Source of the DNA: Cytophagales bacterium
Lineage (GTDB): Bacteria > Bacteroidota > Bacteroidia > Cytophagales > Bernardetiaceae
Assembly: GCA_013299045.1 (NCBI GenBank)
Contig: JAAFJX010000008.1
Location: 1-64,000 of the forward strand
Length of the DNA: 64,000 nt
Direction of reading: 5' to 3'
Shown here: positions 3,683-32,163 of the stretch, in pieces
Layout: every line of letters starts with the position of its first letter
Numbering within the stretch: position 1 is the stretch's first letter
Made by a program: the position numbers and the translations under genes
The notes under the pieces: generated by a model
What the model was told of the DNA's origin: nothing
Databases searched by the model: none
The model's input: the letters and a program-made list of their open reading frames with translations, nothing else

Positions 3683-6600
3683 TTATTCTACAACAAATTT
3701 TTTGATATAGTTTTTGCCATTACTCATTACTTTCAAGAAGTAGGTGCCGCGGCTCACGTTAGCCAAATCAATAGATTCGCTCAGCGATGCACCACTAACG
3801 TTTACTTTGCTGGTGTAACAAGTTCTGCCAAGTACGTCCATTATCACAATTTGTGCTTCTTTAGCAAGAGCTTCGTCTTTTAAATTGAGCTTGAACAGAC
3901 CCGTGTTTGGATTAGGCAATACTTCAAAGACAGTTTCAGACAACTCATCTTCACTCACAGGGCTATTAGCCACGCCAGCTAGACCTCCCGTTGCACCACC
4001 ACAGAAAGATGTTTGTACTACTCTGGCGGTTCGCCCTTTGTAAATAGTAACATCAACGCGCAACTCTAAGCTAGGGTCGGTTGTACTAACCATAAATACC
4101 TCGCCATTTTTAGAGTACAAAATATTTGAGCCAGAACGTTCTACTCGAAGAATATCGCCAGGCAGCGCAAAACCAAATGATTCAGTTTTAACACCATTCT
4201 CACTCACGACAATCTGCCCCCCAGCGTACATGATACCATGATTAATCCAATTATCATCGTCGCCAATATTGAGATTAGAAAGTCCAATGATATAATGCGT
4301 TGTGCCGTTGGCTTCGTCTATATGAAACTCTACCCAGCCATTCACATCAGGAGCAAGACGGTTCGTTGAGGCTGCACCAGAATTCCACATCCCAGCAAAT
4401 GGTAGCACACGCTCTAGGCCAAATTCAAGTGGTGTTACACCAGATAAATCCTCCCACAAAACAGCATTGCCAATTTCATAATCACGCGAAACAAACTCAC
4501 CACTTGCATCTTCTACAAAAGCAGAGTAGAAACCAGCGCTCAAACCGCTCACAGATAAATCCGTAGAACCAGTACTCCAGTTTACACTATATGGCGCTTG
4601 CCCACCCGATATACTCAGGTCTATGCTTCCTGTTGTTGTTGTCCCGCAGCTAGTTGGAGTTACTTTACCCACCACACGCAAGGGATAACAGAAGGAGGTT
4701 CGCAAAACAGGCGTGCTGCCTTTCAGCAACAAAGCATTGATAGAAAGCGACTTACTTTCATCAATTAGCGTAGTATAAATGAGTGTGCCATTGCGATAGT
4801 AGTTCATATTGCCTCCTTCGCGGCTCACGCGCAGGCGGTCGCCACTAACAGCTGGGCCTACAGGAATAAGTGTGCCAGCGCTGCGTATGACCAAAGAACC
4901 AGAGGTATGTATGAAGCCATCTTCAGCAGTAGATAAGCTACCCACTCCCAAATCAAAGGTATTCAAACCAACAGCATAACCATTGCCAGTAGCTATGGCC
5001 TCAGTAGTAAACTCTACCCAGCCGTCTTCAAAAGGTTGCATTGTATTACGAGAAATAGCGCCGCCTGTCCAGCCTCTGCGTGAGCCTGTTTTCGAAAGCC
5101 TGCCTTCAGCATCAGCAGCTACATCTTGGAGAATCTCCCAGATAACTGTCGTGCCTACTGTGTAGGTCTGCGTAACCACATCGCCATACGCATCGGTGAG
5201 TGTAAGTGTATATTCGCCAGGCGACAATCCCTCTATAGAGTCTGCTGTAGCGCTAGTGTTCAAGGTACTTGCACCTGTAGACCACACGTAATCATAGTTA
5301 GAATAACCAAACTCTACATTCGCTACAATTTTGCCGCTAGGCGTACCCTCACAAGATGTATTAGAAATGATAACAGGAGCAATATGTGGCAAAGCTCTGA
5401 ATGAAGCACATACTTTTGGAATGCTTCCACTTAAAATAGAAGCATCAATCACTGCACTCAAACTCGCATCAGTGGTAGAAGTATGTACAGTACTGCCGTT
5501 TACTTTATAGAGTATAGAGCTACCCATACGTTCTATGCGAAGCACATCACCAATATTAACGCCACCATAAGTAAAAACATCACCTCCCATTTCCATGACT
5601 TTGAGGTTACCAGCAGCAAAGTAGAAGCCATGTGCAATAGTAGTTTCAGTTTCATTGACGTTTGTGTTGGATAACCCAAGTACAAAGAACTCATCACCAG
5701 GAAGTTCATCAACAGTCATAGCAACCCAACCGTTTTGGAAAGCTGGCAAAATGTTATGTGAGGCTGCACCTGCATTAAAACTAGCAGACGTAGACGTTTT
5801 AACAAGCATCTCGGTAGCTGGCAAATACGCTGTATTAACCTTGTCCACCCAAACTACAGTTCCTGAACGCAGCGGTGCAACCACCGAAGCCACTGCACTA
5901 CAAACTGAGTTAGATGCCACTACTGTATAGTTGCCTGGTATCAGAGTCGTATAGGTACTGCTTGTTGCCCCTGCAATATCTACGCCGTTGCGTTGCCACT
6001 GATACATCGTACCTACCTCTGAAGGAACAACCACTGCTGTCAGTGTTTGCGGGCTGCCTTGGCAAATAATGCTGTCAGGAACGCTGATACTTACAGTACA
6101 GAGGTCTGGGCAATCATCTACACTTACAAGAACCGCTGTTCTCGCACTCGCACAGCCCAAGGCCACGCTTTGTACGTAGTACGTCGTGTTTGTAAGCAAA
6201 ACAGGACTAGTATAACTTGCACCAACACCAACCAACGAACCACCTACCGCTGCATTGTACCATTCAAAGCCAGCACCGACTGTCGTACTTGTGGCGGTTA
6301 ATGTAGCCGTGTTTCCATCACAAATGGTTAAACCAGATGAAACAGCTGCATTTGGAACTGGGTTTATAGTAACAGTAACTGCTGCTGAAGTCCCGTTGCA
6401 ACCAGTTAAGATGTTTGTGGCAATAACCGTATAAACACCAGCCAAAGTTGCAGTGTAACTAGAAGTAGTTGCACCAGCTATCGTTAGGCCATCTTTTTTC
6501 CATTCATAGCTTACTCCTGTGCTTGGCGACGCATTTAAAATGACACTACCACCCGTACAGAGCGTTAAAGAGGCCGAAGGTGTAATAACTGCAACTGGCT

Positions 6601-9600
6601 TCGGATTAACATTCACGCTAATGATGTTAGAAGTATCGCTACAGCTTGTGGCAGTATTAGTTACAATCACACGGTATGAACCACTCGTGCTGGCACTATA
6701 TGTTGCCAAAGTAGCACCTGCGATAGATGTAGAACCATTCAGCCATTGATAAATGATACCAGCTACTGGTGTAATACTCAAATTGACGCTGCCACCCTCA
6801 CAGAAAGTAGTTGGTCCACCTGCCGCTATGCCTGCCGCAGGCAGCGGATTAACAACAACAACCGTTGCTGGCGACTCGCCAACACAACCCGTAGAAGTAT
6901 TGGTTACTACCACCGTATAACTACCAGCCGAAGTAATGTTGATGCTAGCCGTTGTTGCCATAGGAATCACTATGCCATCTTTTTTCCATTGAAAGGACGC
7001 ACCACTTGCTATGGAAGAAGATAAGGTTACGGACTGACCCGCACAAATGGTAGTAGAACCGGCAAAAGTGATAGTAGGGGCAGGGTTCGGGTTCACTGTT
7101 ACATTAATTACTGCAGACATTGCACTGCTGCAAAGCGTTGATGGGTTTGTTACAACGACAGCATAAGCACCGCTTGTTGTAGCACCCAAAGTACTACCTG
7201 TTGCTCCCGCTATCAAAGTAGCATCTTTGTACCACTGGTAGGTTACGCCAGAACTAGGCGAAGCAGTCAATGTTACGTTACCACCAGCACAAAAAGTAAC
7301 AGCACCACCAGCCGTTGCGCTTGCAATAGGCAAAGGATTAACTGTAACGACCACTTCTATGCGGGCGCTCACACAGGCACCAGACGTTACAGACACCCAA
7401 TAAGAGGTAGTACTTGTGAGTGCTGGCGTTGTATATGATGCACCTGTAAAGAGCAAAGTGCCACCACTGGCTGCATTGTACCAATTATACACTGGGCTAG
7501 ATGCGCCACTACTGGCTGTGAGTGTTGTATTCGCATTGAAACAAATATTAACAGAGGAAGCTGTTGGTGCAGCCAACGTGCCAATATTAACCGTAACAGC
7601 CGTTCTGGTAGCGCTTGTACACCCTCCTGACGTAACTTGCACGTAGTAAGTTGTTGCAACACCCAAAACAGGCGTGGTATAAGAAGCTGTACTTGCCAAA
7701 AGTGTTCCGCCTGTTGGTGCATCATACCAGGCAAAGCTAGGTGCAGAAGCAGCGCTTGAGGCAGTAAGTGTTGCTGTATTGCCCGCACAAATAGTTGTAC
7801 CTGAAGCGGTTGGTGCAGAAGGAATTGGGTTCACAATGACTGTAACAGCCGTTCGGGTAGCGCTGGTGCAACCACCTGATGCAACCTGAACGTAGTAAGT
7901 AGCTGTACTGCTCAGAGTTGGCGTGGTGTAAGATGCCGTACTTGTCAAGAGCGTTCCGCCCGTTGGTGCGTCATACCAGGCAAAGCTAGGTGAAGAAGCG
8001 GCACTTGTAGCCGTTAGTGTAGCTGTATTGCCCGCACAAATTGTTGTACCTGAAGCGGTTGGCGCAACAGGAACGGGATTCACAGTTACTGTAACAGCCG
8101 TTCGGGTAGCGCTGGTGCAACCACCTGATGCAACCTGAACGTAGTAAGTAGCTGTACTGCTCAGAGTTGGCGTGGTGTAAGAAGCTGTACTTGCCAAAAG
8201 TGTTCCGCCTGTTGGTGCATCATACCAGGCAAAGCTAGGCGCAGAAGCGGCACTTGTAGCCGTTAGTGTAGCTGTATTGCCCGCACAAATTGTTGTACCT
8301 GAAGCAGTTGGTGCAGAAGGAATCGGATTTACAGTTACTGTAACGGCCGTTCTGGTAGCGCTTGTACACCCTCCTGACGTAACTTGCACGTAGTAAGTTG
8401 TTGCAACACCCAAAACAGGCGTAGTATAAGAAGCTGTACTTGCCAAAAGTGTTCCGCCTGTTGGCGCATCATACCAGTCAAAGCTAGGTGCAGAAGCAGC
8501 ACTTGTAGCCGTTAATGTAGCAGTATTGCCCGCACAAATAGTTGTACCTGAAGCGGTTGGTGCAGAAGGGACTGGGTTTACTGTTACCGTTGCAGCACCT
8601 GACTCGGAGCTACAGGGTGTTGAGCCTGTTGTCGTTACAACAACGGTGTAAGAACCCGCCAAAGTAGCGGAGTAAGTTCCAGCAATAGCACCACCAATAT
8701 TGACACCGTCTTTTTTCCATTGATAGGTAACGCCAGTACTTGGAGAAGCAGTTAAGGTTACACTGCTACCCGTGCAAATTGTACTTGTGTTAGGCGTAAC
8801 AGTGGCTGATGCCCCTCCTACAACGTTCACAAGTACTTCAGTTCGCGGACTTTCACAAGAACCACCGTTCACTGAAACCCAAAATGACGTTGTAGTAGAA
8901 AGGACTGAACTTGTAAAAGGATTACCCGTAAACAGAAGCGTACCACCACTAGCAGCATCATACCATTTGTAAGTTGGCGTTGCCGTACTGCTAGATGCGG
9001 TTAGAGTTATCGTATTGCCCGCACAAATCGTTGGTGGAGCTGCCACTGTTGGTGCAGTTGGCGCATTCACATTGACCACCACCTCTTCGCGGTCGCTTGG
9101 GCAGCCCGATATAGTAACCTGCACCCAATAGCTCGTTGTTGTAAACAATGCAGGAGTAGTTAGCGGCGTACCAATTCCTAGCAGTGTGCCACCAGTAGGC
9201 GCATCATACCATGCTATCATGCCTGGAGGGGCGCTAGCCGAAAGCGTAGCAGTTTCGCCTGGACAAATTGTCATATCGGCAGATGCTGTTGGCTTAGCTG
9301 GTTTTGGATTAACTGTGATGGTTTCGCCTGGAGACACCGCGCTACAACCATTAATGTTATCTACTACTGCCACAGTATAAATACCAGCGAGTGTTGCCAC
9401 AAAACTGTCTGATGTCGCTCCAACTATATTTACACCGTCTTTCTTCCATTGGAAAGTTACGCCAGTGGAAGGTGAGGCAAATAAAGTAACGCTATTACCC
9501 GAACAAAAAGTTGTAGGGCCGCCTGGTGTAATGGAAGGGTCTGGTGGAACACCATTAACAACCGCCACCACACCAGATGTAGCTGCACAACCAGTGGCTG

Positions 9601-12600
9601 TTATAGTTGTTAGAACTTGATAGTTCCCTACGGCAGTTGCCGTATAAGTGGAGCTAATCGCACCAACAATATTTACACCGTCTTTTTTCCACTGATAGGA
9701 AACACCACTACTCGGCGAAGCGGTCAGCACCACAGAACCAGCTGGCGGACATAAATATTGCGTCGTACTAGGCGAAATACTCGGCGTAGGAAGTGGATTA
9801 ATGGTTACAGTTATGGAATTGGAAGTAGTTTTACAACCATTGGCAGTGCTTGTAACTTCTAAAGTATAAACACCAGCTACATTTGCTGTATAGTTGCTTG
9901 CAATGGCACCAGCGATGTTTGTGCCGTCGCGTTTCCATTGGTAAGTAACTCCGCTTGCTGTTGAAGTTAAATTGACACTTCCGCCTGTGCAGAAAGATAC
10001 AGGCCCACCTGCCGCAATACTCACCGTAGGAGATGGGAATACACTGATATAATCTGCTTTGGTTTCAGTAATTGTCCCGTTTAGGGTTAGAGAAACCGTT
10101 TTAGAGCCGCTTGTTGGATAGGTTACAATGTGAGGGCCTATGCCTGTGGCTGTGGCGGGGCTTGCACCGGCTCCAAAGTTCCATGAGTAACTTGTGATAG
10201 CGCCTGTGGAGGTACTGGTAAATGTAACTGTTCCTCCTTGACAAACAGTTGTGGGTGCTCCTGTAAAATTGGCGATAATACCACCTGGTGCTTGCAGCTC
10301 AAAATCATCAATGGCACAGCCAGCATTTACTACGCCGCCATCTGATTTAAACAAGAACCTGAAAGCTACATCGGTTGAACCCGCCAAGAAAGAAACATTA
10401 AAACTTCTTTCAGTGTAGGTTGATGCGTAAGGCGAATCAGATGTCCCCCCAAAGTGAACTGTTCCGGCCGGAAAGCCCGGTGCGCCAGCGTCCGCAGCCA
10501 TGGTACGTGTGTACCAAGTGCCACCCGTGGCAGTTCCAAGTTGTGTCCATGTATCGCCTTTGTTAGTACTGTACTGTACAATGAATCCATCATAATTAGA
10601 TTCTGCACGGTATTTTGTTCTGAACTTGAGCGTGTAAGTTCCAGCAGCAGCCATGTTATAGTTGGGAGTACAAAGCCAAGAATCTGTTGCATTGGCATAA
10701 GTAGTCGCTGTTAAGCCTAACACCCACGCATTAGGAGCTGAAAGCGTCCCGTTTTTACCTGCAATAGCTGATGAACCGCGTTCAAATGCAGTTCCGCTGT
10801 TCTTATCTGAACCAAAGTCCAAAAGATTGACATCAAAGTTGCCGCCGTCTGCTGGTAGATAAGGTGGTGTTTTGTCAGGCAGAACGTGTATATAGTCAGT
10901 TGAAGTCTTTGTTACAGTACCATTGATGGTTAGAGAAACCGTTTTAAGGCCAGGCGTGGAATAAGTAACCGTATGTGGGCCTGCGCCTGTGGCAGTAGCT
11001 GGAGTTGCTCCTGCACCAAAATTCCAAGACCATGATGTAGCGCCAGTGTGCGAAGCATTTGTAAACACAACGTTTTTATTGGTATAAACCAACTTCTTAT
11101 CCGCATTAAAGTCTGCAAAGAGGTTCATAAATACATCAGTAGTAAATAGACCTCTGCCATGCGTTGCAATAGCTACAAGATTATCTGCTGAACGAATTTG
11201 AAGCATTTCGCAGCGTGTGTTGGCCAGCCCATTACTAGAGGGTCCCCAGTCTGGCACTGCTACTGAAATATCATCAATAGACCAAACTCCGACTTCGGTG
11301 GCTACTAAGACTTTATTAGGGTCAGTAGGGCTCATCAAAGCCCAGTTAATAGGCATATCGGGCAAATCTCCTGTTTTATTGACCCACGTAACACCGCCGT
11401 TGGTTGTTAACCAAACTTTGTTACCTCCATAGTTAGAGTAAGTTACTATGATGTGATTATCATTTGGCCCCAAAGCAATACAGTTGATATAAGCACTGGG
11501 CAGCGTATTAGATGGGTCCATATCAACAGATGTAGGTGTAGTTCCCACATCTGCTCCATCTAATCGGCGAATATTTCCATTGCTGCCAGCTACAAAAACA
11601 CGGTTGGCAGTATATGGCGAGGCCGTTATGGCGGTAGGGGTTGTGCCTATTGCACCTGTGGCAACAGCAGAAGTATAGCCTGGAGTTCCGCTGATACCTG
11701 TAATTCTATAAAGTGTATTGGTACTTTGCGCACAATAGAGTACATCTCCAACGTTATCATAATCAGTTGGATTAATGAACAAACCGCCACTACCACCAGT
11801 TAAGCCACTAAATGATGCACCACCGTTGGTTGAGCGATAATAGTTATTATTGACGTAAGAGGTTATTTGATAAAGAGAATTATCTTGGTCAATATGACAA
11901 AAAGCACCATCACCGCCTGTTACCTCTACCGTAGAGTTGATACCTGGCGAGTTGTATTGGTGAGAACCATTATCTTGCGCTCCTGCCAAAAAATAATTGC
12001 CACCTGCATCATTACGAACAGCACAGGCATAAAACTGGGTTACATTGTAGTCTTTTACTCGTTCGCCAAAGGCCGGTGCGGCTACGCCAGCATTGCCTAC
12101 ATCGGCAGAGTAGCTAAGGCCGCCATCATTCCCAAAAATACATTCGTTTGGAAAGCCTGGGCGGAAAGCCATGGCGTGCTGGTCGGCGTGTACATAAGGT
12201 TTGCAAGCACCTGTCCAATAAGTTACACATGACCACGTTGAGCCTCCGTCAGTAGTTCTATGAATGTCAATTCCTCCCGCCAAAAGTATGTTGGGATTAG
12301 TAGGGCCAACTTGGAGAATCAGGTCGTACCAAGATTGGCCGCGAGTGAAGTGCGTACTGGCAGGGGCGCAAGAGCCTTGCTCTAAATAAAGAGGAATAGT
12401 AACTACCACAGGCCAAGTAAGGCCACCATCGTTGGAGCGTCTAAACCATTGCACGTTCCCCCCGCTGTTTTCAGCTACCGCATACATAATATTCGCGTCA
12501 GAGGGTGCGCAAGCCACTTCTACACGGAAGCCGCCTGTTCCGCCTGGATTAATGGCAGTTCCAAAAGCCGTACCTGTTACATCAGTAGAGCGATGTATAG

Positions 12601-13732
12601 TGCCGTTATCTCTGGCCACTATGATAGTGCCCGATGCAGTAATTTCCAAGTCCATACAAGCACCACTGACACCTGTTGGGGTCGTCCAGGTAGCACCACC
12701 ATCAGCTGAACGCCGCAAACCGCTATTGGTTGCAGCCAAAACCACCCCCGTACTGGTTACAGCAAGGTCATTGACATAATAGAAAACTGTGGTGGTGGTG
12801 GAGCCTAACTGTGCCCACGTGGTTCCGCCATTCGTCGTTTTCCAAATACCACGCCCGCGCTGTGCATCTCCATTCCCGAAGCCTTCACCTGTTCCTACAT
12901 AAAATACATTGGTATTAGAGGGGTCATAAGCGATAGAAGCTACTGCTATGTTATCCCAAAAGTCATTTACTTTTTGCCATGAAGTGCTCGCTAGGGTAAT
13001 ATCATTATTGTACCAAAGACCACCACCAACTCCGCCAGCCCATGCTTTTTTCTTTGTAGCATCGTTTGGGTCCCACATGATGGCCCGTGTGCGTCCACCT
13101 ACATTATTAGGCCCACGCTCTGTCCAATTTACGCCAGGCAGTGCGCCGCGTGTGGCCAATTCATCTCTGGCATCTTGCATGGCTTTGAATCGACGTTGCG
13201 TAGGCGCATAGCCTAGGGCTGGGTCAGTCCAACGTGTTTTGTCGTGCAACATCGCCAAATCTGGACGGTCATACTTGGGCAGCTCCTTAATAATATTGTA
13301 ATCAACCCTTGATAGCTTGGTGTAAGGGTGATTATTGAGATAGTCTGTCCATGCCTGTTCGCGCACTTGGGGGTCTTTGGAGCGCATTGCAGATTTAGGA
13401 TAATGCTTGCGAGCATATTCTATCTCATCAAATTCCTCCAAGTCTGCTTTTGTGAGTAAAGTAACATCAGCAGGAACTTTTTTACGCACTGCCGCTATTT
13501 TTGCCGCATCTGACTGTTGCTTAACCGATGCAATAGCTTTTACCTCATTATTTTTTTCTGATGATAATGCCAAACCTTGGGGTGGCGCAACATCTGCAAC
13601 GGAGTGAGCGGTGTGTGATAGTCCAACAGGCACGTCATGCCAGACTAAAGCCGCAACACCCAAGGCTGCAGCAGTTGTGCCTACAGCAAGAGCTCTGCGC
13701 CATTGTGTTTTAAATTTATCGTAGAAGTGCAT
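3683..13732 (-). CDS. Giant T9SS-exported multidomain surface protein
   Basis: 3349 residues. After a signal-like N-terminus (about 14-30) and a prosequence comes a sortilin/BNR-like propeller (about 200-860) with many Asp-boxes (TTNGGTTW, SADGGATW, STDGGSTW). Then PKD1 (872-952, SWSWNFGAG), a jelly-roll-like domain (957-1147), PKD2 (1150-1234) and 17 Ig-like modules of about 80 residues (1235-2600), of the types CxGxxVTLxASP...YQWKKDG and TICAGNTATL...WYDAPTGGTLL. Three related lectin-like modules (about 2627-2781, 2857-3014, 3087-3244) alternate with two SprB-type repeats (WSTGAS, WSTGST). The last 80 residues are a type A T9SS sorting domain (VLPNPNTGLF ... KKFVVE). It should be exported and attached to the surface as an adhesin or gliding-related protein. 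An upstream in-frame ATG at 13816 is rejected because the promoter places the RNA start near 13778. Four Ig modules are near-identical at DNA level. Confidence 0.9.
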   Translation of the reverse strand: MHFYDKFKTQWRRALAVGTTAAALGVAALVWHDVPVGLSHTAHSVADVAPPQGLALSSEKNNEVKAIASVKQQSDAAKIAAVRKKVPADVTLLTKADLEEFDEIEYARKHYPKSAMRSKDPQVREQAWTDYLNNHPYTKLSRVDYNIIKELPKYDRPDLAMLHDKTRWTDPALGYAPTQRRFKAMQDARDELATRGALPGVNWTERGPNNVGGRTRAIMWDPNDATKKKAWAGGVGGGLWYNNDITLASTSWQKVNDFWDNIAVASIAYDPSNTNVFYVGTGEGFGNGDAQRGRGIWKTTNGGTTWAQLGSTTTTVFYYVNDLAVTSTGVVLAATNSGLRRSADGGATWTTPTGVSGACMDLEITASGTIIVARDNGTIHRSTDVTGTAFGTAINPGGTGGFRVEVACAPSDANIMYAVAENSGGNVQWFRRSNDGGLTWPVVVTIPLYLEQGSCAPASTHFTRGQSWYDLILQVGPTNPNILLAGGIDIHRTTDGGSTWSCVTYWTGACKPYVHADQHAMAFRPGFPNECIFGNDGGLSYSADVGNAGVAAPAFGERVKDYNVTQFYACAVRNDAGGNYFLAGAQDNGSHQYNSPGINSTVEVTGGDGAFCHIDQDNSLYQITSYVNNNYYRSTNGGASFSGLTGGSGGLFINPTDYDNVGDVLYCAQSTNTLYRITGISGTPGYTSAVATGAIGTTPTAITASPYTANRVFVAGSNGNIRRLDGADVGTTPTSVDMDPSNTLPSAYINCIALGPNDNHIIVTYSNYGGNKVWLTTNGGVTWVNKTGDLPDMPINWALMSPTDPNKVLVATEVGVWSIDDISVAVPDWGPSSNGLANTRCEMLQIRSADNLVAIATHGRGLFTTDVFMNLFADFNADKKLVYTNKNVVFTNASHTGATSWSWNFGAGATPATATGAGPHTVTYSTPGLKTVSLTINGTVTKTSTDYIHVLPDKTPPYLPADGGNFDVNLLDFGSDKNSGTAFERGSSAIAGKNGTLSAPNAWVLGLTATTYANATDSWLCTPNYNMAAAGTYTLKFRTKYRAESNYDGFIVQYSTNKGDTWTQLGTATGGTWYTRTMAADAGAPGFPAGTVHFGGTSDSPYASTYTERSFNVSFLAGSTDVAFRFLFKSDGGVVNAGCAIDDFELQAPGGIIANFTGAPTTVCQGGTVTFTSTSTGAITSYSWNFGAGASPATATGIGPHIVTYPTSGSKTVSLTLNGTITETKADYISVFPSPTVSIAAGGPVSFCTGGSVNLTSTASGVTYQWKRDGTNIAGAIASNYTANVAGVYTLEVTSTANGCKTTSNSITVTINPLPTPSISPSTTQYLCPPAGSVVLTASPSSGVSYQWKKDGVNIVGAISSTYTATAVGNYQVLTTITATGCAATSGVVAVVNGVPPDPSITPGGPTTFCSGNSVTLFASPSTGVTFQWKKDGVNIVGATSDSFVATLAGIYTVAVVDNINGCSAVSPGETITVNPKPAKPTASADMTICPGETATLSASAPPGMIAWYDAPTGGTLLGIGTPLTTPALFTTTSYWVQVTISGCPSDREEVVVNVNAPTAPTVAAPPTICAGNTITLTASSSTATPTYKWYDAASGGTLLFTGNPFTSSVLSTTTSFWVSVNGGSCESPRTEVLVNVVGGASATVTPNTSTICTGSSVTLTASPSTGVTYQWKKDGVNIGGAIAGTYSATLAGSYTVVVTTTGSTPCSSESGAATVTVNPVPSAPTASGTTICAGNTATLTATSAASAPSFDWYDAPTGGTLLASTASYTTPVLGVATTYYVQVTSGGCTSATRTAVTVTVNPIPSAPTASGTTICAGNTATLTATSAASAPSFAWYDAPTGGTLLASTASYTTPTLSSTATYYVQVASGGCTSATRTAVTVTVNPVPVAPTASGTTICAGNTATLTATSAASSPSFAWYDAPTGGTLLTSTASYTTPTLSSTATYYVQVASGGCTSATRTAVTVIVNPIPSAPTASGTTICAGNTATLTASSAASAPSFAWYDAPTGGTLLASTASYTTPVLGVATTYYVQVTSGGCTSATRTAVTVNIGTLAAPTASSVNICFNANTTLTASSGASSPVYNWYNAASGGTLLFTGASYTTPALTSTTSYWVSVTSGACVSARIEVVVTVNPLPIASATAGGAVTFCAGGNVTLTASPSSGVTYQWYKDATLIAGATGSTLGATTSGAYAVVVTNPSTLCSSAMSAVINVTVNPNPAPTITFAGSTTICAGQSVTLSSSIASGASFQWKKDGIVIPMATTASINITSAGSYTVVVTNTSTGCVGESPATVVVVNPLPAAGIAAGGPTTFCEGGSVNLSITPVAGIIYQWLNGSTSIAGATLATYSASTSGSYRVIVTNTATSCSDTSNIISVNVNPKPVAVITPSASLTLCTGGSVILNASPSTGVSYEWKKDGLTIAGATTSSYTATLAGVYTVIATNILTGCNGTSAAVTVTINPVPNAAVSSGLTICDGNTATLTATSTTVGAGFEWYNAAVGGSLVGVGASYTSPVLLTNTTYYVQSVALGCASARTAVLVSVDDCPDLCTVSISVPDSIICQGSPQTLTAVVVPSEVGTMYQWQRNGVDIAGATSSTYTTLIPGNYTVVASNSVCSAVASVVAPLRSGTVVWVDKVNTAYLPATEMLVKTSTSASFNAGAASHNILPAFQNGWVAMTVDELPGDEFFVLGLSNTNVNETETTIAHGFYFAAGNLKVMEMGGDVFTYGGVNIGDVLRIERMGSSILYKVNGSTVHTSTTDASLSAVIDASILSGSIPKVCASFRALPHIAPVIISNTSCEGTPSGKIVANVEFGYSNYDYVWSTGASTLNTSATADSIEGLSPGEYTLTLTDAYGDVVTQTYTVGTTVIWEILQDVAADAEGRLSKTGSRRGWTGGAISRNTMQPFEDGWVEFTTEAIATGNGYAVGLNTFDLGVGSLSTAEDGFIHTSGSLVIRSAGTLIPVGPAVSGDRLRVSREGGNMNYYRNGTLIYTTLIDESKSLSINALLLKGSTPVLRTSFCYPLRVVGKVTPTSCGTTTTGSIDLSISGGQAPYSVNWSTGSTDLSVSGLSAGFYSAFVEDASGEFVSRDYEIGNAVLWEDLSGVTPLEFGLERVLPFAGMWNSGAASTNRLAPDVNGWVEFHIDEANGTTHYIIGLSNLNIGDDDNWINHGIMYAGGQIVVSENGVKTESFGFALPGDILRVERSGSNILYSKNGEVFMVSTTDPSLELRVDVTIYKGRTARVVQTSFCGGATGGLAGVANSPVSEDELSETVFEVLPNPNTGLFKLNLKDEALAKEAQIVIMDVLGRTCYTSKVNVSGASLSESIDLANVSRGTYFLKVMSNGKNYIKKFVVE
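7599..8594. repeat. Four tandem 249-bp coding repeats in the giant adhesin gene
   Basis: Four head-to-tail units of exactly 249 bp (83 codons, frame kept) begin at 7599, 7848, 8097 and 8346. Each encodes one Ig-like module. Units 7599 and 8346 share one version of the left part (PVLGVATTYYVQVTSGGC) and units 7848 and 8097 share another (PTLSSTATYYVQVASGGC). The unit at 8097 switches to the first version in its middle. This mosaic suggests recombination or conversion between units. Confidence 0.9.
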
Positions 13733-22789: not shown

Positions 22790-24193
22790 ATGAAATTTTT
22801 AATATATATCTCTTGCTTGTTAAGCCTCATGGCCGCTTGCAGTCAAAAAATTAATCCTGAAAAACCCAAACTAATAGCGGGTAAATCTTTGGGCGATGCA
22901 CCTATTTCTAGCATAGGCATTCCGCTTTCTATTGAGGTTGCTGAAATTGAAAATGCGCTCAACGAAGCATTAAAGCCCGTTATTTACGAAGATAATGACT
23001 TTGAGAATAACCAAAAAGACGATTTTAAGGTAAAACTGTCCAAGCTAGGAGCAGCAAGTTTAGATATGAGTGGTAATATGCTACGTGCCAGTATGCCTCT
23101 GCGTGTGGAGGCGGAGTTGCGTTTGATTGGCAAAAAAATAGGCAAAAGAACGCTTATCCAAGAAACTAAAAAAGTCAGTTTTGAGGCCACTGTGCGGCTT
23201 CGTAGCAGCTTAGCCCTCCAAGAAGATTGGCGCATTATGCCTAATACCGAAATAGACCAAATTACTTGGATAAAAAGGCCAACCTTGAAAGTAGGGAGGC
23301 TCAAAATCCCACTGGATATGCTCGTAGAAAAGATTCTGAGAAAAAAAGAAACCAAACTAGAAGCCGCGCTAGATAAGGTCATCTATGAAAAAATCCCACT
23401 AAAAAAGCAAGTAGATAAAATTTGGCTTTCTATGCAAAAACCTATATTGCTGGATAAAAAAAGCCAAATGCTCTGGTTAGTTAATGCGCCGCAACGTATT
23501 TCGGCTATGCAACCCAGTGCTGAAAATGATTTGCTAACCATCAGGCTTAAACTAGAAACCTCTTTACAAACTGTTGTGGGTAAGGAACCACCTACCAACA
23601 TGAAGCCTTTGCCTAATTTATTGCTAGCTAGAACTTTACCCGATAGTTTTAAGATATACATGAATTGTCGTGCTTTTTATACAGGTCTTTCAGAGATTCT
23701 GAATAAAAAATTGGATAAAAAAGAGTTTGAAAAAGGAGGGGCAAAAGTAAGGATAAAGGACGTGGAGATAGACGGCGGTGGCGATATTCTTGTGGTGGGG
23801 CTTAAACTCAAGGGGGACTTGAACGGGCAAGTTTATTTGAGCGGAAAGCCCACACTAGACTCCGCCCAAAAAAGCCTGACTATCAAAGATTTTGGTTTTG
23901 ATATGCACAGCGAGGAGGTGCTCCTTTCGGTAGGAGATTGGCTGCTCAACAGTACGCTAATAGGTTATGTGGAAGAAAACGTATCCATTCCTCTCGACTC
24001 GCTCTCCTATCAAATCCCTGATAAAATTGTGGCGGGGCTAAATAAAAGTAAGTTGGGTGAGCGCTTGGAGTTAGATTTTTCTGCCTTTGCTTTCAAGCCA
24101 GTCAGCTTGGTCATGACAGGTGCTGCCATTGAAGCGCTCATTCTGGCTGAGGGCAAAAGCAGTTTGAACATCAAAAAAATTACTAAAAAATAG
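22790..24193 (+). CDS. DUF4403 family lipoprotein
   Basis: 467 residues. The signal peptide ends in SLMAAC, so Cys17 is the likely lipid anchor. The mature protein opens with SSIGIPLSIEVAEIENALNEAL, which in shortened form (IPLSIEVAEIENALN) is the typical start of DUF4403, a family with internally repeated long beta and helix units resembling lipid-binding tubular folds. From family knowledge the function is unknown; a role in lipid handling at the outer membrane is inference. The P-type ATPase gene begins 20 bp after its stop, so the two likely form an operon. Confidence 0.82.
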   Translation: MKFLIYISCLLSLMAACSQKINPEKPKLIAGKSLGDAPISSIGIPLSIEVAEIENALNEALKPVIYEDNDFENNQKDDFKVKLSKLGAASLDMSGNMLRASMPLRVEAELRLIGKKIGKRTLIQETKKVSFEATVRLRSSLALQEDWRIMPNTEIDQITWIKRPTLKVGRLKIPLDMLVEKILRKKETKLEAALDKVIYEKIPLKKQVDKIWLSMQKPILLDKKSQMLWLVNAPQRISAMQPSAENDLLTIRLKLETSLQTVVGKEPPTNMKPLPNLLLARTLPDSFKIYMNCRAFYTGLSEILNKKLDKKEFEKGGAKVRIKDVEIDGGGDILVVGLKLKGDLNGQVYLSGKPTLDSAQKSLTIKDFGFDMHSEEVLLSVGDWLLNSTLIGYVEENVSIPLDSLSYQIPDKIVAGLNKSKLGERLELDFSAFAFKPVSLVMTGAAIEALILAEGKSSLNIKKITKK

Positions 24194-24213: not shown

Positions 24214-27000
24214 ATGCGCAGAAAAGCAGCTTACCAATCTACGAACGACGAACTCTTTAAATTCTTTGGGACAGACCGCCACAGCGGACTTACCAACGAA
24301 CTATTTTTTAGGCAGAAAAAACGCTATGGTGCCAATCGTATATTTGCAGCAGTTACAAACGGCGCGTTCAAAACCTTTTTCCTGGAGTTAAAAAAGCCTT
24401 TGTTTTTCGTTATGCTTGTTATGTGTATGGTGGATACGCTCATTCACTTCAACGATACGGGCAATTATAGCGGTCTATTATTGCTGGCTGCTCTGCTTCT
24501 TAATGCTTTTTTGGGCGCATGGCAAGAGTGGCGTTCGGCCAAAATTTTAGACAAAATCAAGCATCAAGAGCATATTGTTTGTAATACGCTCAGAAATGGT
24601 AAAATTAATAAGACGAATGATTTTCAACTCGTTCCTGGCGACCTAGTTCGGCTAAGTGCAGGCGACAAAGTGCCCGCAGATATGCGCTTGCTGGAGTCTG
24701 AAAATCTTGTTTGCGACGAGTTCGTTCTCTTTGGCAGCACCGAACCCAAAAGTAAACACGCCAACATCATCTTGGATAAAGACCTACCGCTTTATCGCTG
24801 GGATAACTGCTGTTTCAAAGGCACAAAGGTCATTGCGGGTAGCGCGCTGGGGCTTGTTTACGCCATAGGTAAGCACACACAATTAGGTCAAATTAAGGCA
24901 CTTTCAAGCATTATTACGCCGCGCCTAACCCCCATTGAAAGCGAATTGAGGAAGGCCGCTATTTTTGTGGCTTATTTTCTGATATTTTTGAGCGTTCCTA
25001 TGCTTTGGATAAACTTCAAGCAAAACGGGCAGTTTTTTATGGAGCTAAGCAAGCTCTTCATGGGCGGCCATACCAGCACGTTTCCCATTCTGGTAGCCTT
25101 CAATAAAATGAAAGATGGCCTCAAGTATGTTATAGAAGAAACCATTACTCTTGGCTCAGCGCTCATGCCCATAGGCTTACCCCTGCAACTCTATCTGGCA
25201 CTCCTGATTGCACTGCGCAAATTCCCACTGACTGATGTGGTTTTCAAAAAACTTTCTACCATAGAAACATTAGGCTCACTTACTACGGTTGTTTTAGACA
25301 AAACAGGAACCATGTCTTCTAATGAAATGGTGGTGCAAAAACTCATAGGAGCTGATGGTGTTCTGCAGATAAGCGGACATGGCTATGCCCCAGAGGGCGA
25401 GCTGCTAAACGCCGAAAACCAAGTACTCAGCAACGACAACTACGGTAATTTTGGCCAGCTCTTACAAGCTGCTGCCCTCTGTACCAATGCGCAAGTGCTA
25501 GCCCCTACCGCTTCTATCCCTTACTGGCACGCCAAAGGCGAAGCCACCGATGCCGCTTTTGCTACCCTTGCCCAAAAGATTAGGAAGGCTGGCATAAAAT
25601 CTGATAAAAATCAGTTTCTCATTCAAGTATTTGATTTTGAACCCAAAACACAGCGTTCATCTATACTCTGGCGCGCTGATGGGCGTAATCGCTCTTTTGT
25701 GAAAGGCTCTATTGAAGCTGTTTTGGCTGAATGTGAATTTTATATCAAAGACCAGCGCCGCTTTAAACTAGATGCAGAAAGCAGAACCAACTTTTTGGCA
25801 ATGGCGCAAGAACAAGAAATGAAGGAGTTTAGAGTCATTGCCTTAGCAACAAGAGAGCTGGATAACTACAGCTATTACACAACCGAAGACACCGAAACAA
25901 GGCTAGATTTTGTCGGTTTGGCTTGTTTAGCAGACCCCCCTCACGAAGATATGCCCGAAGTGATTAAAAACCTTGAAGCATTGGCTATGAACGTGGTCGT
26001 TATTACTGGCGATAGCCCAAAAACTACCCAGTCTTTAGCACACCGAATTGGGTTGAAAAATACCAAAAAAGAAAGCCCAATCGCACTTTATTTTAATGAA
26101 AAAACAGCTGAGCATTTGAATCTGCTAGACGACGAAAAGGCACTTATTCTGGGTAGGGCATCTGCCGAAAATAAATACGAGCTTATCAAAGAACTCCAAC
26201 AAAAAGGAGAAGTTGTAGCTGTTATAGGTGATGGAGTAAACGATATTGCTGCCATCAAGCAAGCAGATGTGGGCGTAGCCTTAGGCATTAGGGGGGCTGA
26301 TGAAACCATGGAGGTTGCACAAATGACCCTAGTAAAAGATAAATTGAGCTTTTTTGCTTACGGTTTGGCCGAAAGTAAGGCGCTTTCTAAAAATATTGCG
26401 GTTTTAAGCATTTCTTATCTAGCCATGCTTTTTGCAGAAGCATTTTTGGGTTTCGCGGACTATTTTTTGCCTGTTACCATCATTGACCCTGCTCTTATTG
26501 TTTTGAGTGATGTCATCAGCATGACTGTTCCTTTAAGTATGCTGATTTATGACAAACAAGAAAGCCGTGGCACTGGCGCTAAGAAAAACACTAACATATT
26601 GTCGCACACAAACCTGATGCTAGCCACTGTTTTTGGTGGTATGATAACACTAGGCATTTTTGCGGTCAATTATCTCGGTTATATGTATAACCCCACGCAG
26701 AAGAGTTATACCTTCCTAACTTTTGGTAGCCTAATTTTAATGAGCTTACTGACTATGATGTATATGCGTTCACCACAGCAAAGCCTTTTTTCTGCTCAAA
26801 CTCTCAGCAACAATTACCTTCTGAGAGGTATTGCCTTTGCTTTGTTTACGGTCATTGCACTTTACTATATTCCTTTTGTGAGTGCGCTTTTTGGCAGTTC
26901 TTATCAAAGTGTGGGCTTTTTGCAATGGGCTATTATACTGGGCGTATCGGCTGTTTATATGTTAATTTTAGAGCTTATTCGTTTTGCACGAAAGCTATAG
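24214..27000 (+). CDS. Divergent P2-like P-type ATPase with altered catalytic motifs
   Basis: 928 residues in the membrane, with the layout of Ca/Na/K-type (P2) pumps: cation-ATPase N-domain, A domain, P domain, and C-terminal membrane helices. The phosphorylation site DKTGT (Asp362), TGDSPKT and GDGVNDIAA are intact. Three other key sites are not. The A-domain TGES loop reads FGST (173-176), losing the Glu that drives dephosphorylation. The M4 PEGLP reads PIGLP (319-323), replacing the ion-binding Glu by Ile320. In M6, aligned on the conserved prolines, SERCA positions N796, T799 and D800 correspond to D766, S769 and M770. It may pump a different substrate, work slowly, or be a phosphorylatable non-pump. 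The reading frame is intact, so it is not a simple pseudogene. The upstream gene encodes a DUF4403 lipoprotein 20 bp away. Confidence 0.88.
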   Translation: MRRKAAYQSTNDELFKFFGTDRHSGLTNELFFRQKKRYGANRIFAAVTNGAFKTFFLELKKPLFFVMLVMCMVDTLIHFNDTGNYSGLLLLAALLLNAFLGAWQEWRSAKILDKIKHQEHIVCNTLRNGKINKTNDFQLVPGDLVRLSAGDKVPADMRLLESENLVCDEFVLFGSTEPKSKHANIILDKDLPLYRWDNCCFKGTKVIAGSALGLVYAIGKHTQLGQIKALSSIITPRLTPIESELRKAAIFVAYFLIFLSVPMLWINFKQNGQFFMELSKLFMGGHTSTFPILVAFNKMKDGLKYVIEETITLGSALMPIGLPLQLYLALLIALRKFPLTDVVFKKLSTIETLGSLTTVVLDKTGTMSSNEMVVQKLIGADGVLQISGHGYAPEGELLNAENQVLSNDNYGNFGQLLQAAALCTNAQVLAPTASIPYWHAKGEATDAAFATLAQKIRKAGIKSDKNQFLIQVFDFEPKTQRSSILWRADGRNRSFVKGSIEAVLAECEFYIKDQRRFKLDAESRTNFLAMAQEQEMKEFRVIALATRELDNYSYYTTEDTETRLDFVGLACLADPPHEDMPEVIKNLEALAMNVVVITGDSPKTTQSLAHRIGLKNTKKESPIALYFNEKTAEHLNLLDDEKALILGRASAENKYELIKELQQKGEVVAVIGDGVNDIAAIKQADVGVALGIRGADETMEVAQMTLVKDKLSFFAYGLAESKALSKNIAVLSISYLAMLFAEAFLGFADYFLPVTIIDPALIVLSDVISMTVPLSMLIYDKQESRGTGAKKNTNILSHTNLMLATVFGGMITLGIFAVNYLGYMYNPTQKSYTFLTFGSLILMSLLTMMYMRSPQQSLFSAQTLSNNYLLRGIAFALFTVIALYYIPFVSALFGSSYQSVGFLQWAIILGVSAVYMLILELIRFARKL

Positions 27001-27330: not shown

Positions 27331-28086
27331 TTAGCGGCTTATTGCTGCTTGTATCTCCGTTTTGAGAATTGGTAGTATTGCCGATTCATTATGAATATTG
27401 ACCTCCAAACGAAGACTTTTTTCGCCTAAGTCTAGCCCCAGACGGCGGCGGTCTATCTCTAAAAATAATTCTGTACAGTCATATTGGCTTATGAATATGA
27501 CTTCAAGCTCCTCTAAGTCTTGCTTAAACGTTGTTGTTGGCCTAAAAACAAGTTTTTGAACGAAAGGAAAGCGCGTATTCATACGATAGTGGCGCGGCTC
27601 ATACTCAAGGCTGTCCAAACTAAAGCCCAGTTTCTGTAACGCACCCAGTATGCTCTTGTTGAAAACATCAGGCAATATGCGTATATGGTCAGCATCGGTG
27701 GGGTCTAATGCTGAATCAATATCGGCACTGGTTTTAAGCCATGTTTGGGTATTGGCATTCAGTGAAAGAGGGGTATCAGTGGGTATTTCAAATTCAAACG
27801 GAATCTGCTGTGTTGTTTTGGCTTTTAGTAAAAGAGGATTGGGTAATACGTCTTGCTCCAGAACGGTATAAACTGTTTGGCCGCCTTCGTCTGGCGTACC
27901 GAATGGAATTTGAGTTAGCAAAAATATTTTGATTTTGTCTATCTGCTGGTCTGTATTACCGCCTTTCAACAAAACATAACCTTTCAAAACTTCACCTGCC
28001 ATAAACTCTTCTTTTTCAAGAATAGTATCTACCTCCGCAGCGCCTATGCCAATACTTGCCAATATTTTTTTAAAAAAAGAAGCCAT
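27331..28086 (-). CDS. Spo0M-like (sporulation-control) protein
   Basis: 251 residues, cytoplasmic. The N-terminal SIGIGAAEVDTILEKEEF and the GEVLKGYVLLKGGNTDQQI region (GYVLLKGGNTDQ) match the Spo0M family, which has an arrestin-like beta-sandwich. In Bacillus, Spo0M modulates sporulation and cell organisation; Bacteroidota do not sporulate, so the role here is unknown. A paralogue lies at 31393-32163. The gene is a single unit whose end abuts a MITE-like element. Confidence 0.85.
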   Translation of the reverse strand: MASFFKKILASIGIGAAEVDTILEKEEFMAGEVLKGYVLLKGGNTDQQIDKIKIFLLTQIPFGTPDEGGQTVYTVLEQDVLPNPLLLKAKTTQQIPFEFEIPTDTPLSLNANTQTWLKTSADIDSALDPTDADHIRILPDVFNKSILGALQKLGFSLDSLEYEPRHYRMNTRFPFVQKLVFRPTTTFKQDLEELEVIFISQYDCTELFLEIDRRRLGLDLGEKSLRLEVNIHNESAILPILKTEIQAAISR

Positions 28087-31392: not shown

Positions 31393-32163
31393 TTAGATGC
31401 TGCTCATAACCTCGTGTATCCAGCCTTCAAAATTTACTGATTGATAATTGCTATAATCCAGATAGAAACTCAGATTACGCTCACCACCAAAGAAGCCCTT
31501 TTTCTCAATTTCTAATTTTACGTCGCAACCACCGTGTTTGCCAATAAAACTGACATCTACTTCTGAAATTTTTGAAGCATAGCTTGTATTGCGTGCATTA
31601 AACTCAATTTCTTGTTGGAATGACAAATTACTACCAGCTACTCGCCCTGGCTCTAGCTCTGCACCCGCCATACGGAAACCCATCTTGTCCATTGCTTCAA
31701 GGAAGGCCGTCATGGCTGCGTTTGGCTCTACGCTGATAGGGTCATAGTCCGATTTATCCAGCGCATCTTCAATGTCCAATGCGGTTTTGATACCGAGCGG
31801 ATGACCGCCAGCGTATCTTAGCGCCATACCCTTATAGTGTGTGAGTGCAATTTCATTTGGCACAGGAATACTGAAGCTGATTTGCTTTTCTTCTTTAGCC
31901 TTTAGCTTAAAAGCCTCAGAAATTTTCACTTTGCTAAAAGAAACTTGCTCATAGTAGTGCGAACTGCCTTCTTCTGTTTCAACAGTACGCTTAATTTTTG
32001 CTACAAAATGCAAGTAAAGCGGATTAAGGTCTTGGTCGCTGCTGCCACCTTTAATGTGCGTTACGCCGCTCAGAACACCGCCAGGCTGCACATTCGCATT
32101 ATTCAACTTTGTATCAACTGTTGCAGAGCCAATACCTATTGCAGAGAGAAGTTTTCCAAACAT
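31393..32163 (-). CDS. Spo0M-like (sporulation-control) protein, paralogue 2
   Basis: 256 residues, cytoplasmic. The opening LLSAIGIGSATVDTKLNNA and GGVLSGVTHIKGGSSDQDL (VTHIKGGSSDQ) place it in the Spo0M family with an arrestin-like fold. It keeps the same N-terminal signature as the paralogue at 27331-28086, but the rest differs clearly, so the duplication is old. It heads a two-gene unit with the PAP2 phosphatase gene, which starts 4 bp after its stop. That link to a lipid phosphatase is the only local functional clue. Confidence 0.85.
   Translation of the reverse strand: MFGKLLSAIGIGSATVDTKLNNANVQPGGVLSGVTHIKGGSSDQDLNPLYLHFVAKIKRTVETEEGSSHYYEQVSFSKVKISEAFKLKAKEEKQISFSIPVPNEIALTHYKGMALRYAGGHPLGIKTALDIEDALDKSDYDPISVEPNAAMTAFLEAMDKMGFRMAGAELEPGRVAGSNLSFQQEIEFNARNTSYASKISEVDVSFIGKHGGCDVKLEIEKKGFFGGERNLSFYLDYSNYQSVNFEGWIHEVMSSI

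Follow-up and report, generated by a model that had tools for sequence, protein, structure and literature searches.

A natural lineage of P2A-type ATPases in Cytophagales with serine in place of the TGES glutamate

Introduction

The TGES glutamate in the A-domain of P-type ATPases is treated as indispensable. The described proteins closest to the one analyzed here are PMR1/SPCA, SERCA and LMCA1 of Listeria, and throughout we use SERCA position numbers and ligand roles, which we take from established knowledge of that pump. Passages of a study of the K+ pump KdpB (PMC7535926) report what follows when the same glutamate is changed in the laboratory: in the E161Q variant, ATPase activity is abolished and the enzyme is trapped in E2-P. 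Variation in M4 is also described. According to passages of PMC4937031, isoleucine at the glutamate of PEGL is the rule in P4 flippases (PISL), and isoleucine or valine is found there in P3 ATPases. P4 proteins nevertheless retain the catalytic glutamate, in a DGET motif. A full-text literature search for P-type ATPases and pseudoenzymes found no paper, and the passages of the TGES literature that were covered describe no natural family lacking the glutamate; coverage was partial in both cases, and both count as weak evidence.

Here, we describe a P-type ATPase of a Cytophagales bacterium, encoded in a 64,000-nucleotide stretch of DNA (the window). It shares with PMR1/SPCA, SERCA and LMCA1 the domain order, the P- and N-domain motifs and the overall layout, and these proteins are its best matches in sequence and fold. 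Unlike them, it has serine for the TGES glutamate, isoleucine for Glu309, and uncharged residues at N768, D800 and E908. Its hydrophobic M4 residue (I320 in PIGLP) is the one that PMC4937031, in the passages mentioned, gives for P4 flippases, and a neighboring gene for a DUF4403 lipoprotein adds a possible lipid context to this likeness, whereas its A-domain reads FGST and not DGET. The position changed in KdpB E161Q is also changed here; in contrast to that laboratory change, the serine is natural and conserved, and a glutamate stands two residues further on.

Results

A full P2-type scaffold

The ATPase gene is an uninterrupted frame of 928 amino acids, open throughout as the preliminary description had it (Table 1). 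Its Pfam matches, Cation_ATPase_N, E1-E2_ATPase, Cation_ATPase, Hydrolase and Cation_ATPase_C, make up the full P2-type layout. The protein scores 176 bits with the superfamily model TIGR01494, over the cut-off of 62.3, and its HAD-type P-domain carries the DKTGT, TGD and GDGxND motifs of the P-type superfamily. The best-scoring curated NCBIfam families are those of P2A Ca2+ pumps, TIGR01522 (PMR1-type; 298 bits) and then TIGR01116 (SERCA-type Ca2+ ATPase; 286 bits), although their cut-offs of 798.3 and 703.4 bits are missed. Membership in the P4 or P3 families is ruled out by the family scores (60 of 431.25 bits for TIGR01652 and 206 of 615.5 bits for the P3A H+-ATPase family TIGR01647). The solved structures nearest in sequence are SPCA1 and Listeria LMCA1, and an AlphaFold2 model built from 13 sequences, with a mean pLDDT of 77, matches chains of SERCA and SPCA. 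Two E1-E2_ATPase matches, this protein among them, occur in the 4.06 Mb genome (G000), which is 99.8% complete.

Table 1. Coordinates of the ATPase gene, its motifs and the adjacent lipoprotein gene in the window.
Feature	Position	Strand	Basis
DUF4403 lipoprotein gene, lipobox Cys17	22790..24193	+	Pfam PF14356, 360.8 bits, residues 39-461
P2A-type P-type ATPase, altered catalytic and ion-site motifs	24214..27000	+	frame, Pfam, NCBIfam, AF2
FGST (173-176) replacing TGES; S175 where the catalytic Glu would be	24730..24741	+	alignment
E177, two residues past the replaced Glu, shared by the three altered proteins; may stand in for it	24742..24744	+	alignment
Enlarged M3-M4 extracytoplasmic loop, residues about 266-305	25009..25128	+	alignment
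M4 PIGLP (319-323); I320 aligned with SERCA E309, where L003 has Ile and L035 has Leu	25168..25182	+	alignment
DKTGT (362-366), predicted phosphorylation site Asp362, unaltered	25297..25311	+	frame translation, alignment
N-domain KGS (497-499), K497 = SERCA K515, unaltered	25702..25710	+	alignment
P-domain TGD (598-600), unaltered	26005..26013	+	alignment
GDGVND (672-677), P-domain hinge and Mg site, unaltered	26227..26244	+	alignment
M5 L739 (SERCA N768 position) to E742 (E771, retained)	26428..26439	+	alignment
M6 D766 (N796 position), S769 (T799), M770 (D800)	26509..26523	+	alignment
M8 S844 at E908 position	26743..26745	+	alignment

Phosphorylation residues are kept, A-domain and ion-site residues are changed

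The preliminary description had reported an intact DKTGT with Asp362, FGST for TGES, PIGLP for PEGLP, and Met770 as the counterpart of SERCA D800. All of these are read exactly where it placed them, and the conserved M6 proline (P773 = P803) anchors the last assignment. All tested phosphorylation residues are retained (D362, K497, D600, K654, D673 and D677), and in the alignment the equivalents of D351, TGD, K684, D703, D707 and K515 are present in all three altered proteins, namely the window ATPase and the relatives L003 and L035 introduced below. The A-domain TGE(S/T) of the superfamily is absent, and in place of the P2A site II ligands (the M4 glutamate and the M6 asparagine and aspartate) we find I320, D766 and M770. 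The three positions named at first are thus truly altered, but more has changed: N768 is Leu739, T799 is Ser769 and E908 is Ser844. As a result of the alignment, the equivalents of E309, N768, D800 and E908 are seen to be uncharged in both the window ATPase and L003 (the window pair). M5 E771 is retained as E742. E177, E742 and D766 are invariant across the three altered proteins. The M3-M4 loop of the window pair exceeds that of the sister clade described below by about 29 residues and is poorly conserved (47% identity).

The missing motifs are not hidden elsewhere in the chain: no TGE is present along its entire length, and the sole PEG lies at residue 393, inside the N-domain. Ser175 occupies the position of the TGES glutamate, yet E177 could take its place, and to speak of a loss is then perhaps an overstatement. 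The AlphaFold2 confidence at residues 175–177 is below 50, and the model is silent on the role of E177.

Three altered proteins form a clade

Only one close relative was found, in a Cytophagales metagenome bin that represents the sole other species found in the genus (L003 = L005 = G001). It is 66% identical and has both FGST and PIGLP. The two genes differ at a pN of 0.234, with saturation at synonymous sites (pS 0.75), which is purifying selection on an intact ATPase protein; pN of the neighboring DUF4403 gene pair is the same (0.234). The next-best relative across the 390 order genomes searched is L035, encoded in G156. It belongs to another family and is also altered, reading TGSL in the A-domain, IPLTMY at PEGLP, DKTAT for DKTGT, and isoleucine at D800. 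The three frames encode 928 (window), 933 (L003) and 935 (G156) amino acids. The glycine change in DKTAT (L157 5781-8588, -) is absent from every other aligned protein.

In the tree, the preliminary suggestion that FGST/PIGLP proteins form a clade holds for the window ATPase and L003, and L035 joins them with full support (100/99). The sister group of the trio consists of six proteins whose LTGES is normal (L006, L038, L042, L043, L044 and L060) and which are spread over the order and class. When either long branch was left out, the other lineage still branched basally to the sister clade. A long-branch artifact is therefore rejected for this position, although the joining of the two altered lineages to each other may still be one. 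Searched with a profile of the three proteins at E <= 1e-190, the 390 genomes of the order yielded no fourth altered member, and the matches examined in samples of the class and phylum held no further one. Plasmids yielded generic P-type ATPases only, at most 28% identical among the matches listed.

Loss of the TGES glutamate is the exceptional change

We compared the three altered proteins with 92 others, comprising 86 general P2 proteins and the six sister-clade proteins. All 92 have the TGES glutamate and all three altered members have serine, a distribution that is more than chance. Glutamate at the E177 position occurs in seven of the 86 general P2 proteins, each of which also retains the TGES glutamate. 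D800 is a different matter, since 28 of the 86 have a residue other than aspartate there (alanine in 18), and its loss by itself is not unusual. The three changes had been presented together as losses of key residues; of these, only that of TGES is exceptional, because PIGLP (in the P3 and P4 families) and a non-acidic D800 position are each known in working pumps.

The sister clade is nearest to the window ATPase by tree and shares with it the M5 glutamate and an aspartate at N796, which each of the nine wider-clade proteins has. It differs in that LTGES is normal, that five of its six members have PEGLP (PSGLP in L038) and that no DUF4403 gene lies beside it. At the D800 position it has glutamate or asparagine. 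Because N796 is aspartate in all nine and D800 is glutamate or asparagine in the sister clade, the ion site was non-standard already before the TGES glutamate was lost. The sister-clade ATPase lies within a CusABC-like heavy-metal efflux cluster in three of the six genomes (G058, G134 and G480), which hints at a metal-related task in the ancestor.

The occurrence of P2-type ATPases with aspartate at N796 and glutamate or asparagine at D800 inside CusABC-like clusters (L158, L161 and L163) suggests an undescribed metal-related P2 subgroup. The CusA-like RND gene beside the sister ATPase is in two frames (about 423 + 645 amino acids) with the same split point in two genomes (L158 7222-10770, -; L161 2058-5278, +) and is unsplit in L163, as a single 1053-residue frame. 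In G202 (L160 3614-8950), two P-type ATPases of 837 and 925 amino acids adjoin in convergent orientation.

ATP machinery and M4 are held while M5 and M6 are relaxed

We measured the conservation of each region relative to the whole protein in 122 P2 pairs of 55-75% identity, the window pair included. The altered lineage is represented by this single pair, and the 121 comparison pairs overlap and are not independent. Relative conservation of M5 (0.96) and M6 (1.02) in the window pair is the lowest of all 122 pairs, the means among the other pairs being 1.27 and 1.37. Its N-domain (0.98) equals or exceeds 120 of the 121 other pairs and its A-domain 113 of 121. M4 has a normal relative value of 1.43 and is 93% conserved (0.93), as in true pumps. 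By these regional differences, the ATP machinery and the connecting helix M4 are still held by selection, and the usual ion-binding helices M5 and M6 are not.

The clean frame had been read as selection for an altered function, and the evidence now agrees: L003 keeps the motifs, synonymous sites are saturated at a pN of 0.23, the proteins form a clade, the phosphorylation residues are kept, and M5 and M6 are relaxed.

The DUF4403 neighbor is a feature of the genus

The DUF4403 gene stops 20 bp upstream of the ATPase start. The same pair is found in L003 with a gap of 24 bp, and the remaining flanks there are different. The lipobox cysteine, Cys17, is invariant in 11 members of the DUF4403 family. 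Outside the genus, the association is not seen. DUF4403 occurs in eight further genomes of the window's family, and in none of the seven whose wider flanks were read does it have a P-type neighbor. No DUF4403 match was found in the G156 genome (89% complete). DUF4403 as a constant partner of the ATPase, a question raised in the preliminary description, is therefore excluded beyond the genus, and adjacency holds for both genus species.

In passages of PMC6791001, Levine predicts that DUF4403 proteins are pseudodimeric TULIP lipid-binding proteins, mostly anchored in the outer membrane. This strengthens the earlier hint of a lipid or envelope role, while lipid transport as such is not supported here. 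Our AlphaFold2 model of the DUF4403 protein (pLDDT 38) is too poor to judge a TULIP fold, and a PDB sequence search with the 11 DUF4403 proteins gave no match. A search for DUF4403 among viral contigs was empty, and scans for promoters and terminators had more hits in shuffled than in real sequence.

Elsewhere in the window, a 10 kb frame (3683-13732, -) encodes a 3349-residue protein whose C-terminus resembles, by eye, a Bacteroidota type IX sorting domain. Two genes near each other encode SpoOM-like proteins, the first a Pfam Spo0M match (27331-28086, -) and the second assigned by eye (31393-32163, -).

Discussion

Our preferred reading, held tentatively and at somewhat short of even confidence, is that the window ATPase is a P2A-derived, self-phosphorylating enzyme with slow or rerouted dephosphorylation, which would serve as an envelope switch or as a slow transporter of something other than a cation, together with DUF4403 in the genus. 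ATP binding and phosphorylation of Asp362 would be kept. Because the catalytic glutamate of the A-domain is serine, we infer that removal of the phosphate would be slow or would pass through another group, perhaps E177. With the phosphorylation residues kept and the glutamate gone, a long-lived phosphoenzyme is the simplest prediction, unless E177 takes over; standing two residues off, it might restore normal hydrolysis. The divalent-cation site appears dismantled, and for this reason Ca2+ pumping is unlikely. The ATP-driven motion of the A-, N- and P-domains would then serve as a conformational switch of the inner membrane, long-lived and gated by phosphorylation. Alternatively, the same motion may slowly move a non-cation substrate. 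In the window's genus, the adjacent TULIP-type lipoprotein may be the partner in an envelope task; the relative in G156, with no DUF4403 match in its genome, is a point against such a partnership in general. Further points against our reading are that the strong conservation of M4 fits transport and that the retained E742 and D766 could bind one cation or proton.

A close rival, doubtful but to be taken seriously, is a working transporter with a changed substrate (a lipid, a proton, a single monovalent ion or an organic cation), in which E177 or another group rescues hydrolysis. The M4 isoleucine, found in P4 and P3 proteins in the passages cited above, agrees with it, as do the conservation of M4 and the invariance of E177, E742 and D766. 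In its lipid version, DUF4403 would receive or supply the lipid, and here the pseudodimeric TULIP prediction in the passages of PMC6791001 is in its favor. P4 proteins, however, retain the catalytic glutamate that is missing here, the P3 and P4 scores are far under cut-off, and M5 and M6 are relaxed; moreover, the G156 relative is without DUF4403, and DUF4403 is usually without an ATPase neighbor.

It is improbable that the protein is a normal cation pump of the P2A type whose unusual residues do the same work as the standard ones. Its full P2A architecture, the frequency of non-aspartate residues at D800 among P2 proteins and the presence of E742 and D766 speak for such a pump, but the E309, N768, D800 and E908 positions are altered along with an otherwise invariant TGES glutamate, and the constraint on M5 and M6 is relaxed. 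Equally unlikely is a decaying gene or a structural pseudopump devoid of ATP chemistry. It could draw on the long branches in the tree and on DKTAT in the G156 relative; against it stand the clean frames in the genus and in G156, strong purifying selection, the better preservation of the P- and A-domains than of the membrane part, and the presence of all phosphorylation residues in the window pair. Recent decay is ruled out by the 66% identical relative, which shares FGST and PIGLP and does not have normal motifs, and by the ratio of pS to pN. We found no point in favor of errors in sequencing or assembly as the source of the motifs, and this reading is refuted by their recurrence in an independent genome of a second species (L003/G001) and by the same glutamate-to-serine change in a third genome (G156).

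To return to the switch or slow transporter that we prefer, the wider picture would be of a lineage permanently without the A-domain glutamate that operates as a phosphoenzyme switch or a lipid-linked machine, with a TULIP-type lipoprotein as partner in one genus, which we regard as possible, if rather uncertain. A conserved natural lineage without the TGES glutamate would demonstrate either reuse of the pump scaffold or a different route of phosphoenzyme hydrolysis. A true partnership with DUF4403 would, in addition, link a P-type ATPase with a bacterial lipid carrier of the predicted TULIP type.
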